Assembly: GCA_028875655.1 (NCBI GenBank)
Contig: JAPPCX010000020.1
Location: 1-36,763, forward strand
Source: Chloroflexota bacterium
Lineage (GTDB): Bacteria; Chloroflexota; Dehalococcoidia; Lucifugimonadales; UBA3495
Direction: 5' to 3'
Length of the DNA: 36,763 bases
In this document: piece after piece, positions 29,188 to 36,763 of the stretch
Layout of the letters: every line of letters begins with the position of its first letter
Position numbering within the stretch: the stretch's first letter is position 1
Program-made: the position numbers and the translations under genes
The notes under the pieces: generated by a model
Told to the model about the DNA's origin: nothing
The model's database searches: none
Seen by the model: only the letters and a program-made list of their open reading frames with translations

Positions 29188-30633
29188 TCAGTCCTGGAGC
29201 ACCCAGACGTCTTTCCCGCCCCCGCCCTGGCTGCTGTTCACCACCAGGCTGCCGCGCCGCAACGCCACCCGGCAAAAAGCGCCGGCCACGATGCGAGTCT
29301 CGCGGCCATGCAGTATGAACGGCCGCAGGTCAACGTGGCGTGGCTCGAAGTTGCCTTCGATCAGGCAGGGAGACCGGGAAAGGTCCAGGGTCGGTTGCGA
29401 AATGAAATCGGTGGGGTCGGCCCGGACTTGCTCAGCGTATTCGGCCCGTTCTGCGGGCGTCGCGTGAGGCCCCACCAACATACCGTAGCCGCCGGATTCG
29501 CCGACCCGCTTGACCACCAGCTTGTCCAGGTTGTCCAGCGTGTATTCCAAATCCTCGAAGTTGCGGCACAGGTGGGTCTCCACGTTTTCCAGCAGCGGCT
29601 CTTCGTTCAGGTAGTAGCGCACCATATCGGGCACGTATGCGTAAACGCTCTTGTCGTCGGCAACGCCGGTCCCGGGAGCGTTGGCCAGGGCCACGTTGCC
29701 GGCCCGGTAGGCGTCCATCAGTCCCGGGACGCCCAGCACCGAGTCGGAGCGGAACACCGACGGATCTAGGAAGTCGTCGTCCACGCGCCGGTAGAGCACG
29801 TCGATCCGCTCCAGCCCGGTGGTGGTGCGCATGTACACGAAACCGTCGCGCACCATCAGGTCCCGCCCCTCCACCAGTTCGGCGCCGATTTCCCGGGACA
29901 GGAACATGTGCTCATAGAACGCCGAGTTGTACACCCCGGGCGTCAACAGCGCCAGCCGGGGATTCTCCCTCCCGTCTGGCGCCAGTTCCAGCAGGGTTTC
30001 CTGCAACAGCCGGCCGTAATGCTCCACTTCCTGCACCCGGGAGTCCCGGTACAGCCGGCGCAGGCTGGCCTTGGTCGCCTTGCGGTTGGCGATCATGTAC
30101 GAGACGCCCGACGGCACGCGCAGGTTGTCCTCAAGCACGCGGAAGCCGTCGTTGGTGCGCACAACGTCGGTCCCGCACACCGCGACCCACGTGCCCTGTG
30201 GCGGGGTGAACCCGCGCATCTCCGGGCGGTAGTGTGGGCATTCGTACACCACCTCCGCCGGAATGACCCCGTCCGCCACGATTCCGGCGTCGCCGTACAC
30301 GTCCTGCAGGAACAGGTTCAGCGTTCGCAGCCGCTGGGTCAGCCCGGCATCCAGGAAATCCCACTCCGCCTTGGGCAGCAGGCGCGGGATGCAGTCCACG
30401 GGGATGATGCGCTCCTCAGCCTCCTCGTCCCCGTACACGGTAAAGGTGATTCCCTCGTTGGAGAACGAGCGGGTCACCCGCTCCTGGACGCTGGCCAACT
30501 GCTCGCCGGAAAAGTTGACAAGGGCGTCGAACAACCGCTGGCAGTGTTCGCGAGGCTCGCCTGCCGGAAGGAACATCTCGTCATAGACGCGTTCGTCGAG
30601 ATTGTAGTCCTGGAATCGGTCTGGCGTGCTCAT
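29188..30633 (-). CDS. Circularly permuted ATP-grasp protein
   Basis: The 481-residue protein is of the permuted ATP-grasp type always found beside alpha-E. The N-terminal part runs YDEMFLPAGEPREHCQRLFD. Conserved blocks follow: RIIPVDCIPRLLPKAEWDFL, LNLFLQDVYGDAGIV, GTWVAVCGTDVVRTNDGFRV, EDNLRVPSGVSYMIANR, and the permuted C-terminal LDKLVVKRVGESGGYGMLVG. ATP-grasp enzymes join a carboxylate to an amine using ATP. I choose the ATG at 30633; the frame to 30696 adds 21 residues with no support. It heads the long minus-strand run and diverges from tRNA-Val. Confidence 0.88.
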   Translation of the reverse strand: MSTPDRFQDYNLDERVYDEMFLPAGEPREHCQRLFDALVNFSGEQLASVQERVTRSFSNEGITFTVYGDEEAEERIIPVDCIPRLLPKAEWDFLDAGLTQRLRTLNLFLQDVYGDAGIVADGVIPAEVVYECPHYRPEMRGFTPPQGTWVAVCGTDVVRTNDGFRVLEDNLRVPSGVSYMIANRKATKASLRRLYRDSRVQEVEHYGRLLQETLLELAPDGRENPRLALLTPGVYNSAFYEHMFLSREIGAELVEGRDLMVRDGFVYMRTTTGLERIDVLYRRVDDDFLDPSVFRSDSVLGVPGLMDAYRAGNVALANAPGTGVADDKSVYAYVPDMVRYYLNEEPLLENVETHLCRNFEDLEYTLDNLDKLVVKRVGESGGYGMLVGPHATPAERAEYAEQVRADPTDFISQPTLDLSRSPCLIEGNFEPRHVDLRPFILHGRETRIVAGAFCRVALRRGSLVVNSSQGGGGKDVWVLQD

Positions 30634-30772: not shown

Positions 30773-30849
30773 GGGCGATTAGCTCAGTTGGTTAGAGTAC
30801 TTGCTCGACACGCAAGAGGTCGGTGGTTCGAGTCCACCATCGCCCACCA
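30773..30849 (+). tRNA. tRNA-Val (GAC anticodon)
   Basis: The acceptor stem GGGCGAT/ATCGCCC, D arm GCTC...GAGT, anticodon arm CTTGC-TCGACAC-GCAAG, variable AGGTC and T arm GGTGG-TTCGAGT-CCACC fold into a complete cloverleaf. The anticodon GAC reads valine GUC/GUU codons. A discriminator A and an encoded CCA follow (30847-30849). Position 33 reads C rather than the usual U. The recombinase gene on the other strand runs into the tRNA and stops inside it. Confidence 0.93.
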
Positions 30850-32435
30850 CGCTGTACCGAATTCATAACACCCCCGCTGAGGGCCACTTCCGCCGTGTCC
30901 GCTCCCCCTATGGGACTGTCCGACGGGGTCGGGATGGTGTAGACGATGGTCGCCTTGCCGGGCGCCACTTCGATCTCCTTCACGAAGGACCGGACGAAGG
31001 CTTTGGTCTCGGTGAGTTCGCTGGTGCGGAGAAACCGGCTCATGTCGGCGGCAAAGGCGGCCACCATGTCGGCGCTGTCCAGCAGATCTCTTCTTTCTGC
31101 CAGCACGGCCCGGGCATCCTCGGCGGCGGCCTCCAGTTGTTCCCGGCGGTGGCGGTGTTCCAGGATGCGCTCCGAGGCGTCGGCCATGTCCAGGCCGGTG
31201 CTCTCCACGAAGTGCCAGATGCGGTCCAGCTTGCGCTTGACCTCCTCCAGCTCCGCTTCGACGGTCTCCAGTCGTTCCCGTTCCTCCTTGGCCACGCCGT
31301 CCATCTCCTCGTCCACCAGCTTCACCAACTCGCGGATGTTGGACTCGGTGAGGATGTTATCGCGGATGTTCTCGATGATAACGCTCTCAAAGTTGCGGGC
31401 GTTGAGCCTGGGGCAATCGCAGGCGTCCTTGCCCTGCTTGAGGAGGGAGTGGCAGACGTAGTAGGTGTATTTGCCGCCCTTGGCCTCGGCGGCGGTCATG
31501 GCCTTGCGGCAGGCTTGGCAGCGGGCCAGGCCGCTGAGCAGGTAGGGGCTGGCGGCGCGGCGGGGGTTGGCCTGTTTCGGGGCGCGGGAACCCAGCAGTT
31601 TCCTGACCTGCCGGAACTCCTCTCCGGTTACGATGGCGGGGAAGGCGTCCTCCACTCTTACCGGCTGCTGCCCGTCCCGGCTCTTCTGTCCCCAGACGAG
31701 AGTGCCGATATAGGCTTCGTTGTTGAGCATGTTGTGGATGGTGGTCTTGATCCACTTCTTGCCGTGGGAGTTGGGGATGCCCTCGGCATTCAGGGTCTTG
31801 GTGACGTCCAAGACACTGTTGCCGTTCAGGACCATATCGAAGACGCGGCGGGCCACGGCGTCCCTGGGCGGGTCGAGTTCCAGGCGGGGGCGTTTCTTGG
31901 CGCCGTCCTGGACGTGGACCTTGCGGTAGCCGTAGGGAGCGTTGGTGGAGACCCAGAAGCCCCGGGAGGCGGCCTCGCGCATTCCCCGCACAACCTCCTG
32001 GGCAAGATTCTCGCTGTAATATTCGTCCACGGACTCGATGATGCCCTCCAGCAGCCGGCCGGTGGCGTTGTCCTCGGCCTGCTCGGTGATTGACACCACG
32101 CGGATGCCCTTGCGCCGCAACTGGGCCTTGAACGCCACGGCGTGCTCCCGCTTGCGGGTGAACCTGGAAAACTTCCATACCAGAATCTCGCGGAATGGGG
32201 CTTCCGGCTTGCTGCCCTCGTCGATCATCTTGCGGAACTGGGGACGGTCGGCGATCCTGCCGCTCTCGGCCTCGTCCACGTACTCCCGGGCCACCGAGTA
32301 GCCGTTGTTCTTGGCGTAGTCCCTGAGTGCCCGCAGTTGGGCGGCCACGGAGAGGTCCACGTCCTGGCGGTCGCTGGAGACCCGGGCGTAGAGGGCCGCC
32401 GGGGTCAGGGGTTGAAACTTGCGATTCTTCTCCAT
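30792..32435 (-). CDS. Large serine recombinase/integrase ending inside tRNA-Val
   Basis: The 547-residue protein is a large serine recombinase that cuts and rejoins DNA at attachment sites. The N-terminal resolvase domain has the catalytic serine S20 in LYARVSSDRQ. The Recombinase domain follows (PYGYRKVHV, LNAEGIPNSHGKKWIKTTIH), then a zinc ribbon with CQACRK and the later CHSLLKQG/CDCPR cysteines. A coiled coil (VEAELEEVKRKLDRIW) and a C-terminal region close it. I choose the ATG at 32435 because AAGGAG is 6 nt upstream; an ATG at 32459 has no such site. The last 18 residues (GGRWWTRTTDLLRVEQVL) and the stop are antisense tRNA-Val sequence, which suggests the element is integrated at this tRNA. 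Confidence 0.9.
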   Translation of the reverse strand: MEKNRKFQPLTPAALYARVSSDRQDVDLSVAAQLRALRDYAKNNGYSVAREYVDEAESGRIADRPQFRKMIDEGSKPEAPFREILVWKFSRFTRKREHAVAFKAQLRRKGIRVVSITEQAEDNATGRLLEGIIESVDEYYSENLAQEVVRGMREAASRGFWVSTNAPYGYRKVHVQDGAKKRPRLELDPPRDAVARRVFDMVLNGNSVLDVTKTLNAEGIPNSHGKKWIKTTIHNMLNNEAYIGTLVWGQKSRDGQQPVRVEDAFPAIVTGEEFRQVRKLLGSRAPKQANPRRAASPYLLSGLARCQACRKAMTAAEAKGGKYTYYVCHSLLKQGKDACDCPRLNARNFESVIIENIRDNILTESNIRELVKLVDEEMDGVAKEERERLETVEAELEEVKRKLDRIWHFVESTGLDMADASERILEHRHRREQLEAAAEDARAVLAERRDLLDSADMVAAFAADMSRFLRTSELTETKAFVRSFVKEIEVAPGKATIVYTIPTPSDSPIGGADTAEVALSGGVMNSVQRGGRWWTRTTDLLRVEQVL

Positions 32436-32461: not shown

Positions 32462-32684
32462 CTATTCCGTCTCCGATTCGTCCCTTCCACTCCGGCGGGA
32501 GCGCCGCCGCATCCGGTCCTTCACCCGCCACTCCCGCTCCTCCATGTACAGGCGGATGGCCTCCCGCAGCAGTTCGCTCACGGTGCGCTCCTCCTCCTGC
32601 GCCACCTCCCGCAGCCGTTGGGCCTGCGGCGGGGGCAGTGAGAAACGTGACGGTCTCGGTGTTCCTGGATATTATGGGGGCCAT
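32462..32684 (-). pseudogene. Ribbon-helix-helix regulator with a one-base frameshift
   Basis: Read from the ATG at 32684 the frame gives MAPIISRNTETVTF. One base later, the next frame continues as SLPPPQAQRLREVAQEEERT and VSELLREAIRLYMEEREW to a TAG at 32462. Joined, the two make a 73-residue ribbon-helix-helix (CopG/MetJ-like) protein: a strand TVTFSLP and two helices. The break is an extra C around 32636-32645 (TTTCTC on the minus strand). As written the gene is broken or read by frameshifting; a sequencing error is possible. Its stop lies 26 bp before the recombinase start, so it would be the recombinase's upstream regulator. Confidence 0.75.
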
Positions 32685-32704
32685 GAGCGCTCTTTGCGCC
32701 GTCC

Positions 32705-32938: not shown

Positions 32939-33466
32939 TCAGCGTCCGTGGATTGGCGCTGGTCGCCGGCATTCGTACCTGAACGGCGTACCCGGCGGGT
33001 GGCGCGGGGCTGGTTGGAGATGTCGGCTTGGCGTGTCTTCTCTGCAACGGTTTGCAGTGGCGGGGGCGTAACGGGAGATGACGGCGGCAAGTTGCCGGAA
33101 AATCGTCCATCCGTGGCTGTTCAGCGACCCCTGTGGGAAATGTCCGGCGCAGGAAGATTGTAGTTTGGGAACTGACTGCAATGCGTCCGGCGGCCTCCGG
33201 GTCCGGCCAGTGGGGCGGCGGCTACGTCCACGCCGCGCCCAGGACGCCGTGTTCCACGCGTGTTCCATGAGGGCCTCCGCGTTGGCGGTGATCACGTCCA
33301 GTGGCTCCATGCCCGGGCATTCGCGGAATAGCACGTGGTAGTTGGCGTTGGAGTTGAACGGCGGGTCCAGGTAGACCGGGTCAACGCTGGCGTCTCCCAC
33401 GTGGTTGCCCAGGAGCTCCAGGTTGTCGCCGAAGCATAGCCGGCTCTTCCAATCCGGGACTGTCAT
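32939..33466 (-). pseudogene. Truncated site-specific DNA methyltransferase
   Basis: The first 50 or so residues match the start of a common DNA methyltransferase family: MTVPDWKSRLCFGDNLELL, then SVDPVYLDPPFNSNANYHV with motif IV DPPF. After about residue 65 similarity ends. The frame continues to 32939 as Arg/Pro-rich sequence without the target-recognition region or SAM-binding motif. The full family has several hundred residues, so this is an N-terminal remnant. Motif IV carries a proline in VDPVY where the family usually has leucine. It overlaps the end of a short upstream frame by 4 bp and lies in the decayed zone beyond the recombinase. Confidence 0.75.
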
Positions 33467-33962: not shown

Positions 33963-34760
33963 TCAGCGGCTCTCCCGCAGCCGGTTCAGTTCCTCTTCCA
34001 GCTCCCGGTTGCGGGCCTCGGCTTGGATACGCAACTCCCGTTCACTGCTGGCGCGGGCCTCAGCCTGGACACGCGACTGCCGCTCAGTCTCAACGTGGAC
34101 CTCGGCAGTCTCAGCGCGATCCTCGGCGGCAAGTCGGTCGCGCCGCTCACTCTCCAGGGTGGCGATGGGCGCGCCCGTGGCCGGGTCGCGGAACACCAGC
34201 CGACCCTCCTCCCACCGCAGGTTCAGGTTCAACGCCCGGCTGTATCCCTGCAACACCCCTCCAGCCAGTACCTCGATTTCCAACGGCTCGTACCGTCCCC
34301 CCGCCAGCCGGTCCCCGGCCAGCTTCGTCCCGTGATGCTCCCCCGTCTCATCGAACCGCCAGTACTCTAGGATGCCCAGCGCCGCGTACTCCTCCCGCTT
34401 CTCCAACACGTCCGCCTCCCCCGTGCTCTCCGACGCCACCTCCAGCACCAAGTCCGGCGCCTTCCCCTGCTCCGACACCACGTACCCGTTGCTGGCCCGG
34501 TACAACTCCGGGTCCACCCCGAAGGCCACCAGCAGGTCGGGACGCCTGGCCCGCGCCTTGTTCTCCTCCGGCCCGGCCACGATCCAGCGGTCCGCCTCCA
34601 CCAGCGTGCTTTCAGGGTTGCCCAGGTGCACCGCCAGGGCGTGGGAGTCGCCGTGCTTGAACAGGGTGTCGTACTGGGTCATCTCGTCAGGCTCCCGCTG
34701 CGGCGGGTCCGGCAGCCGGAACCGTTGCTGGACTTTCGGGGTCTTGTTGGCGGCGGTCAC
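33963..34760 (-). CDS. Uma2-family (DUF820) nuclease-like protein with coiled-coil tail
   Basis: The 265-residue protein starts at a GTG (34760) with GAGG upstream. Residues about 50-190 are the Uma2 domain, a PD-(D/E)XK fold: RRPDLLVAFGVDPEL, then APDLVLEVASEST, where the aspartate and glutamate are the expected metal ligands, and KREEYAALGILEYWRFDE. The last 60 residues are a long charged helix (LESERRDRLAAEDRAETAEV and on), a coiled coil often attached to Uma2 proteins. Uma2 genes are abundant in Cyanobacteria and Chloroflexota, often in many copies, and their role is unclear. Confidence 0.87.
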   Translation of the reverse strand: MTAANKTPKVQQRFRLPDPPQREPDEMTQYDTLFKHGDSHALAVHLGNPESTLVEADRWIVAGPEENKARARRPDLLVAFGVDPELYRASNGYVVSEQGKAPDLVLEVASESTGEADVLEKREEYAALGILEYWRFDETGEHHGTKLAGDRLAGGRYEPLEIEVLAGGVLQGYSRALNLNLRWEEGRLVFRDPATGAPIATLESERRDRLAAEDRAETAEVHVETERQSRVQAEARASSERELRIQAEARNRELEEELNRLRESR

Positions 34761-35945
34761 GGCGAACCTCGGCGGGCCTGGCGTTGGGGTTGCGGTTGGC
34801 CATGGGCTGGCCTGCTGGAGGCATTATACACCGGCCCTCCACGCCACGCCCGCTCCCTGGGAAAGGCTCTCTGAAACCTCCGCCGCCCTTCCCACCCCCT
34901 CCGGCGCCGCCTCCCCGGTCCACCCGGCGGTCGTCGTCCGAGTGGACGCCGTCTGACACGTGGTTTGACACGGGTTTCGCCTGGTCAACGGCGATGCGTC
35001 AGGGGATTGCGCTTTTGCCAGAATCACCCCCGCTGTTTTAGCCTGGGTTTTCAAACTTGCAGAAATGCAATTCCTGACCGGTCAAAGGATTTCACAGCCT
35101 GTTTCGTACTTGAAATCAGGCAAGATGACGCCTCGCCGCGTTCCGGCGAGCCGCCGAAAACGACCCGGATGGCGCTTTTGCGCCCCCGGACAAGAGAACG
35201 GGAAGATAATGCCGTGTCAGCGTGATTGACGGGTCTCTTCCGGACGCATCCGTCGGCGCAACGTGTCCCACCGGTAACCTGCCAATTCCCGCAGCACCGG
35301 GGCTCGCTTTCACCGACCCACAGAGACCCCGGGACCGCCCCAGTACCCCCTTATCGGACGGCGCCGCTCCATTGGACACCGGGATGGGCAGCGTTACGGC
35401 GGACAGAGCGCAGTGGTGCGTCGTCGCCAGCGGCCAGCCCAGCGTCAACGCCAGTTCCCCTCCGTCTATGAAGGGCAGCCGGGCCGGGGAGTCCAGCTTC
35501 CGCGCGCGTGAAAAGGCCACGCCGCCAGCGTAGCAGCCGACGGCCGCCACCGCCGCCAGATTGGCGCCACCGCATGGGACGACGCCGGGACCGAGCGATT
35601 GGTGCAGATACCCAGGACGCGCGGCGTTGCCGGAAATCCACGCTTGGCGCCTCCTCTCCGGCCGGCTCCCGCCCTTTCCCCAAGCGGCCCGGCCGTGTAG
35701 AATCTCACCAGTGAAACGACGCCTCCACCGGGAAGGCGAAGCGTGCTGCGGCAGGTGTGACATGAGCATGCCCAAGACCCTCAGCGACACCTCACATACG
35801 AAGACCGCCAGAAGGACTTATCAACTCATCGACATCGCCGAGCCGCTTACCGCCACCTTCATCTCTGCGGTGGGTTCAGGATGAGGCGGCATGGTAGCCA
35901 AGCACTTGAGACAGATGGTCAATGCCAATGCAAGGAGTATTTCTC
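34761..35945. other. About 1.2 kb with no convincing gene
   Basis: The longest frame is 35116-35790 on the minus strand (224 codons). It has one plausible stretch (LPFIDGGELALTLGWPLATT) but no recognisable domain, and open frames also occur on the plus strand over the same bases, as expected at high GC. A 40-codon plus frame at 35763-35884 (MSMPKTLSDTSHTKTARRTY and on) is also unsupported. The TGTAGAAT near 35695 could be a -10. I see no RNA gene or repeat. The stretch may be decayed DNA. Confidence 0.4.
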
Positions 35946-36416: not shown

Positions 36417-36763
36417 CAATCGGCCAAACCTGATTCTGGTGATGGACCGGAATTCCTGTTTCGGATGGTACGCCGGCACCGGTTTGTGTTGCATGAGGTA
36501 TCGTGTGGACTGCCCATGGATGAGTCCGGCTCGGGTTGCGACTCTGGCTGGGGTCCTGCTGAAGAGCGCCGAAGAGCGGTCGGCGTCCGGGGCGCCCAGG
36601 CCCACCGGTTTCGCAAGACGGATGACCGGTCAGAGGCCCACGTAATAGCCTTGGCCTGTGGCCCGGCCCCGCCTGCCAGCGGCGAATGATCTCCTGTATT
36701 TCCATCCTGAGCCTGTCTCAAAAGTCGGGATGCCGGTTGGGGTGTAGACTGTGAGCAAGCCTG
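36417..36763. other. No gene seen
   Basis: Only overlapping open frames of low-complexity composition are present. A fragment of the dispersed CATCCTGAGCCTGTC repeat lies at 36703-36717. Confidence 0.5.

Follow-up and report, generated by a model that had tools for sequence, protein, structure and literature searches.

A large serine recombinase gene ending in an antisense tRNA-Val, and a related family of probable integration junctions at tRNA 3' ends in Chloroflexota

Results

The large serine recombinase gene (recombinase A) found in the analysed stretch of 36,763 nucleotides, here called the window, has no stop codon of its own, and its reading frame ends inside a tRNA-Val gene on the opposite strand. 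We consider it highly probable that the following features hold together: the window contains the attL of an element that used a tRNA gene as attB, crossover occurred within CCA, the tRNA was left intact, the stop codon of A is contributed from across the junction, and the far end of such elements is either a related recombinase B or a non-coding half-site.

Overlap of the recombinase gene with tRNA-Val

The tRNA-Val(GAC) gene, with encoded CCA, was detected at 30773-30849 of the plus strand by ARAGORN and by Rfam (68 bits). Translation of the minus strand gives the C-terminus of A as ...NSVQR-GGRWWTRTTDLLRVEQVL followed by the stop; 18 codons (30848-30795) and the TAA (30794-30792) all lie inside the tRNA gene. 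That the frame crosses tRNA-Val and obtains its last 18 residues and stop codon from it had been proposed in a sequence-only reading of this DNA, and both the tRNA calls and the translation agree with it. The mechanical open reading frame of A opens at 32684, the first in-frame ATG, and its part upstream of 32435 overlaps a separate ribbon-helix-helix gene in another frame. The true start is at 32435, as indicated by homology and by the ribosome-binding site AAAAAGGAG. The features of the overlap are:

30773..30849, plus strand: tRNA-Val(GAC), putative integration target and chromosomal half of attL, unchanged in the empty site of the relative G008
30847..30849, plus strand: CCA (TGG on the recombinase strand), putative crossover core, judged by the first divergence from the empty site and by TGG at the tRNA junctions of the family
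30792..32435, minus strand: large serine recombinase A, 547 codons plus TAA when integrated
30792..30848, minus strand: last 18 codons and stop of A, from the antisense tRNA, by translation of the frame
30850..30880, no strand: element-side half of attL, encoding the conserved A end ..GVMNSVQR, conserved among the junctions of the family, attP-like ones included

Recombinase A carries the Pfam domains Resolvase (PF00239), Recombinase (PF07508) and Zn_ribbon_recom (PF13408), all above cut-off, and DUF4368 is absent among the Pfam matches of the window copy. It matches the PHROG integrase phrog_95 (E=2.6e-107). CcrB is the best curated NCBIfam match, with 113.9 bits for A and 163 bits for B, at an equivalog cut-off of 900 bits that A does not reach. 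A phage origin of A was considered and rejected, there being no evidence for it: among the matches listed, phage records were at 27-35% and viral contigs at up to 43%.

Targets of the recombinase family

A homologue search gave nine matches in the genome of the window and matches in 46 of 60 relatives. From 219 confirmed loci in named genomes, 99 distinct A-type junctions remained after dereplication. Most listed loci are from Chloroflexota/Dehalococcoidia/SAR202 metagenome-assembled genomes, and a few are labelled Bryobacterales, Acidimicrobiia or Gammaproteobacteria. By our reading of the isolate names and of an Aplysina study (PMC5649159), many of these genomes come from sponges. The A-type recombinases L087, L101, L108 and L154 lie on contigs binned as Acidimicrobiia, Bryobacterales and Gammaproteobacteria, which reflects either cross-phylum transfer or a binning error.

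The overlap with a tRNA is not due to chance, since antisense tRNA 3' ends form the junction in 57 of the 99 distinct family members, whereas a rough estimate of the chance expectation is ~2e-5 per copy. These 57 junctions represent 17 anticodons and 9 amino acids at a constant offset, and all but two have TGG at the junction, the exceptions (L126 and L129) both being at tRNA-Ile. No tmRNA target was found among the family A junctions. A stop before the junction is lacking in 96 of the 99 copies; the three with their own stop form a small group that has no tRNA at the 3' end.

Copies of A that are 93-97% identical occur at Met, Ala and Ile tRNAs, as with L113, L114, L118, L125 and L185 at Ala(cgc), Ala(ggc), Ile(gat) and Met(cat), for which the range applies to the pairs compared. 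The tree requires the target amino acid to have changed at least 30 times. Several tRNA genes would thus be open to one A lineage, probably with the antisense acceptor/T-arm side (TGG...TCGAAC) as the recognised part.

Some A copies lie at non-tRNA sites, including a CaiB-like gene (L040/L139) and an IS3-type transposase (L051/L149), both recognised by eye from translation only; no single motif common to all non-tRNA sites was found. L055 and L101 have a T-arm-like appearance, and were counted as 'other' since Rfam finds no tRNA there. A subfamily of A (L152, L155, L158, L159, L161 and L165, mostly SAR202 bin16) ends at GGGGAGCYTGTCGAACCA in varied non-tRNA places and looks as if it has switched to a dispersed short repeat.

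The C-terminal tail

The C-terminus had been expected to depend on integration context, and the nearest relatives of the window copy (94-95% and about 90% identical) bear this out, as they are not at a tRNA and continue with GGPDW(TKSRT...) instead. After the GG, tails from different contexts show no relation to one another and vary from about 16 to 115 residues. In an AlphaFold2 model of modest overall confidence (mean 67.9), the window residues beyond 521 (the last 27) have pLDDT values of 31-34.

A tail derived from a tRNA or from an element end could act as a functional switch that tunes A for integration or excision. This would agree with the absence of an own stop in every att-side copy and with the different tails of integrated and attP-like copies, and a like idea was proposed by McMurdie et al. 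for DsiB (PMC3146451). We nevertheless regard a switch as unlikely. The tRNA-encoded tail is probably incidental because tails are unconserved, differ widely in length and, in the window copy, are predicted to be unstructured. On the simplest reading, A has no stop because the end of its gene also serves as an attachment half-site.

Empty sites and the left junction

In G008, which belongs to the same genus, the ATP-grasp gene (98% identical at the protein level) and tRNA-Val (identical) are followed by different DNA from the base after CCA, the junctions being CCA followed by TTCGTTTACG in G008 and by CGCTGTACCG in the window. The two loci have 879 15-mers in common in the 2 kb upstream and none in the 2 kb downstream. 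Because the match ends exactly there, the recombinase side is the insertion and its boundary is at the CCA of the tRNA. The comparison with a relative lacking the recombinase, suggested along with the sequence-only reading, thus revealed an empty site from which the window diverges exactly after CCA. Among the relatives compared, tRNA-Ala(GGC) is a second site, empty in G002, G007 and G008, and occupied by one A in the genome of the window (G000) and by another A in G005, G006 and G011, always directly after CCA. Judged by these sequence comparisons, tRNA-Val and A meet in the window at the left junction (attL) of an element that appears not to rebuild this tRNA. The neighbours of the overlap are:

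29191..30633, minus strand: circularly permuted ATP-grasp gene (Pfam), left chromosomal flank, in the same place by tRNA-Val in G008
32466..32690, minus strand: ribbon-helix-helix regulator gene preceding A, frameshifted by one base in the window, with intact homologs before A or B in L042, L043 and L095
33200..33466, minus strand: 5' fragment of a DNA methyltransferase-like gene (..VYLDPPFNSN..), family suggested by the translation
33963..34760, minus strand: Uma2-family gene (Pfam Uma2), probable element cargo
34938..35552, no strand: element-associated sequence, apparently internally deleted, matching contigs with other A copies or element ends

The frameshift in the regulator is either real decay or a sequencing error, and the methyltransferase-like fragment at 33200..33466 has no Pfam match. 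A stretch homologous to the Uma2 region adjoins a 95% identical recombinase in the closest relative (G011:C49). The sequence at 34938..35552 matches contigs C71 and C65 of G000, C191 of G005, and C94 and C98 of G006, where its halves lie ~1.4 kb apart. With the upstream regulator and part of the cargo damaged, the window copy may no longer be mobile.

The probable far junction

Contig C1 of the same genome has a junction between ...GTCAAGTCAGGCCCACCA and CTCGTTTCAC, followed by an 89% identical ortholog of the G008 gene that follows tRNA-Val. This ortholog sits at the end of the small contig, directly after ...CGAAGATGGTACTGTCTACCGTCAAGTCAGGCCCACCA, and in the reverse search the G008 gene was the only strong match in the genus for the C1 flank gene. 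The spacer on C1 is roughly 200 bp shorter than in G008. C1 carries the motif ...GGCCCACCA, which identifies an element end since the motif is also found opposite another recombinase A on C107, and again on C65, C36 and C61. Because this element end is joined to the ortholog of the gene flanking tRNA-Val in G008, C1 is best read as attR at the tRNA-Val site and is the probable far junction. Together, the empty site and the matching junction support the earlier claim that an element integrated at the tRNA 3' end. C1 would be the far end of the window element itself or may instead end another element in a tandem array at tRNA-Val, an ambiguity that arises because the window contig stops in a repeat at 36763, so that the assembly does not run unbroken through the element. 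The terminal 55 bases of the window (36709-36763) are common to the ends of at least nine other contigs, as is typical of an assembly break at a repeat. No far end was found inside the window, where motif GGCCCACCA occurs only with a mismatch and is no commoner than chance; a candidate at 36599 (GGCCCACCG) was not supported.

The sequence-only reading had noted no second copy of the tRNA 3' end in the window. This stands, as the 36,763 nucleotides hold no long repeat of the tRNA 3' segment. A long direct repeat does not exist, because the empty site contains an identical tRNA, at whose CCA the junction falls. In a classical tRNA island, the element would carry a tRNA 3' half and rebuild the gene, with the long far-end repeat missing from this contig. 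This is the usual design of tyrosine-integrase islands, and Dehalococcoides ssrA islands have a 20-bp repeat (PMC3146451). We find it improbable here: near-identical A copies are found next to tRNAs whose acceptor stems differ, so that the stem cannot come from the element; the C1 junction and the tRNA-Val end have only CCCACCA in common; and the empty site has the same tRNA. Another account, an accident of gene order in which a resident recombinase decayed or lost its stop and ran into a neighbouring tRNA, can practically be dismissed. In its favour, antisense tRNA frames are often open and the upstream regulator is frameshifted. Against it, the same register and junction base recur at 17 anticodons, and the empty site, which lacks the recombinase, breaks exactly at CCA; the empty sites and this recurrence already refute the account.

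Recombinase B and the 51-kb element

In 17 cases, A meets the related recombinase B tail to tail around TGGTGGGCC, forming attP-like junctions. B constitutes one clade on the tree. The antisense tRNA side and the B side look alike by eye (TGGTGGGCCnGGAnTGGAC), which suggests that the B half-site may mimic the tRNA. Elements of the C1 and C107 types end in a non-coding half-site, not in B. The B/A junctions can be tandem copies or circles, which look the same in the assemblies.

On contig C49 of G032, the order is tRNA-Ile, A1, about 50-51 kb, and B1 joined to A2. This gene order is consistent with an element that has A beside the tRNA, B at its opposite end and both genes facing outward, with a second copy adjoining. 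The cargo of this 51-kb element includes McrBC-like, type I restriction-modification, Dsr1-like SIR2, type IIG/ISP and Avs4-like genes, as well as two Replication-relaxation proteins and one Mutator-type transposase. Replication-relaxation proteins were located at L067 1743-3764 and L069 4395-6662, near opposite ends of the 51-kb element, and possibly belong to its transfer or replication.

At L216 (1548-1600) and L218 (1551-1606), element ends adjoin A(A/G)CTGGACAAAATCAAGAACC, a half-site resembling that of B in which the core is reversed; no recombinase was found at these two half-sites. A third recombinase type, with its own stop, is present in L167, L170 and L173, in the same orientation as A and 0.5 to 18 kb from it.

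Discussion

Proposed mechanism

In the mechanism that we propose, A would take the 3' end of a tRNA gene as attB and catalyse crossover within CCA, leaving the tRNA intact. The A gene would point at the junction, with its 3' end forming one half of the attachment site of the element, and A would have no stop of its own because its end has this second role. The DNA across the junction would then supply the C-terminus, i.e., the antisense tRNA-Val in the window and the opposite element end in attP-like junctions. The far end of the element would be a non-coding half-site, or B with its 3' end as the other half-site. In a bolder version, which we put forward only tentatively and consider rather doubtful, these are defence-carrying elements whose attachment site consists of two convergent recombinase 3' ends, and integration at many CCAs separates the pair and swaps the C-termini, thereby recording the state of the element.

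As a rule, an integrase uses a single tRNA or a single gene. Because tRNAs have the CCA/T-arm end in common, a recombinase that accepts many of their 3' ends and leaves them unaltered would find a safe place to insert in practically every bacterium. This helps explain the repeated spread among sponge-associated Chloroflexota genomes, with at least one element loaded with restriction and defence genes, and a multi-tRNA recombinase could be useful for genome engineering. That the repeats are little more than CCA also shows why screening for long direct repeats misses such islands.

Comparison with known systems

Like the CcrA/CcrB/CcrC systems of SCC, the elements can have two related large serine recombinases, although both A and B score far below the CcrB cut-off. 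In SCC, the target is a single gene and the ccr genes are clustered. Tyrosine-integrase islands resemble the A elements in using tRNA 3' ends as attachment sites, with a different enzyme class. In such islands, each integrase usually uses a single tRNA, whose 3' end is rebuilt (PMC4383910).

Durrant et al. (2022) described multi-targeting recombinases, >~90% identical copies of which occur in several different target genes; their set has relaxed, often AT-rich motifs and usually DUF4368 (63% of members), and the word tRNA is absent from the paper (PMC10083194). Near-identical copies at several targets are thus found in both groups, whereas A lies at tRNA 3' ends and is without DUF4368. In the literature covered, which is incomplete, we found no description of serine recombinases using many tRNA 3' ends, and the use of CCA to target many tRNAs appears new, as do the A/B ends.

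The missing stop itself has a precedent. McMurdie et al. (2011) reported that the 3' end of dsiB always overlaps attL and that its stop occurs only outside the island, in ssrA or in a neighbouring island; DsiB is a CcrB-like large serine recombinase of about 540 residues from the ssrA-specific genomic islands of Dehalococcoides (PMC3146451). Since this was reported in the same bacterial class, the window observation is a new instance of a described phenomenon. By the published description (PMC3146451), DsiB and A also have in common that they point at attL by an RNA gene. A thus has the DsiB-type trait of a 3' end that overlaps attL with an outside stop, but not the integration at ssrA (tmRNA), its target in the window being tRNA-Val. 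DsiB uses a single tmRNA gene and a 20-bp repeat, whereas A uses many tRNA genes and essentially CCA; the 200-residue DsiA is encoded in the same operon, whereas a full-size B can hold the opposite end here. The family of A generalises the unexplained missing stop of DsiB.
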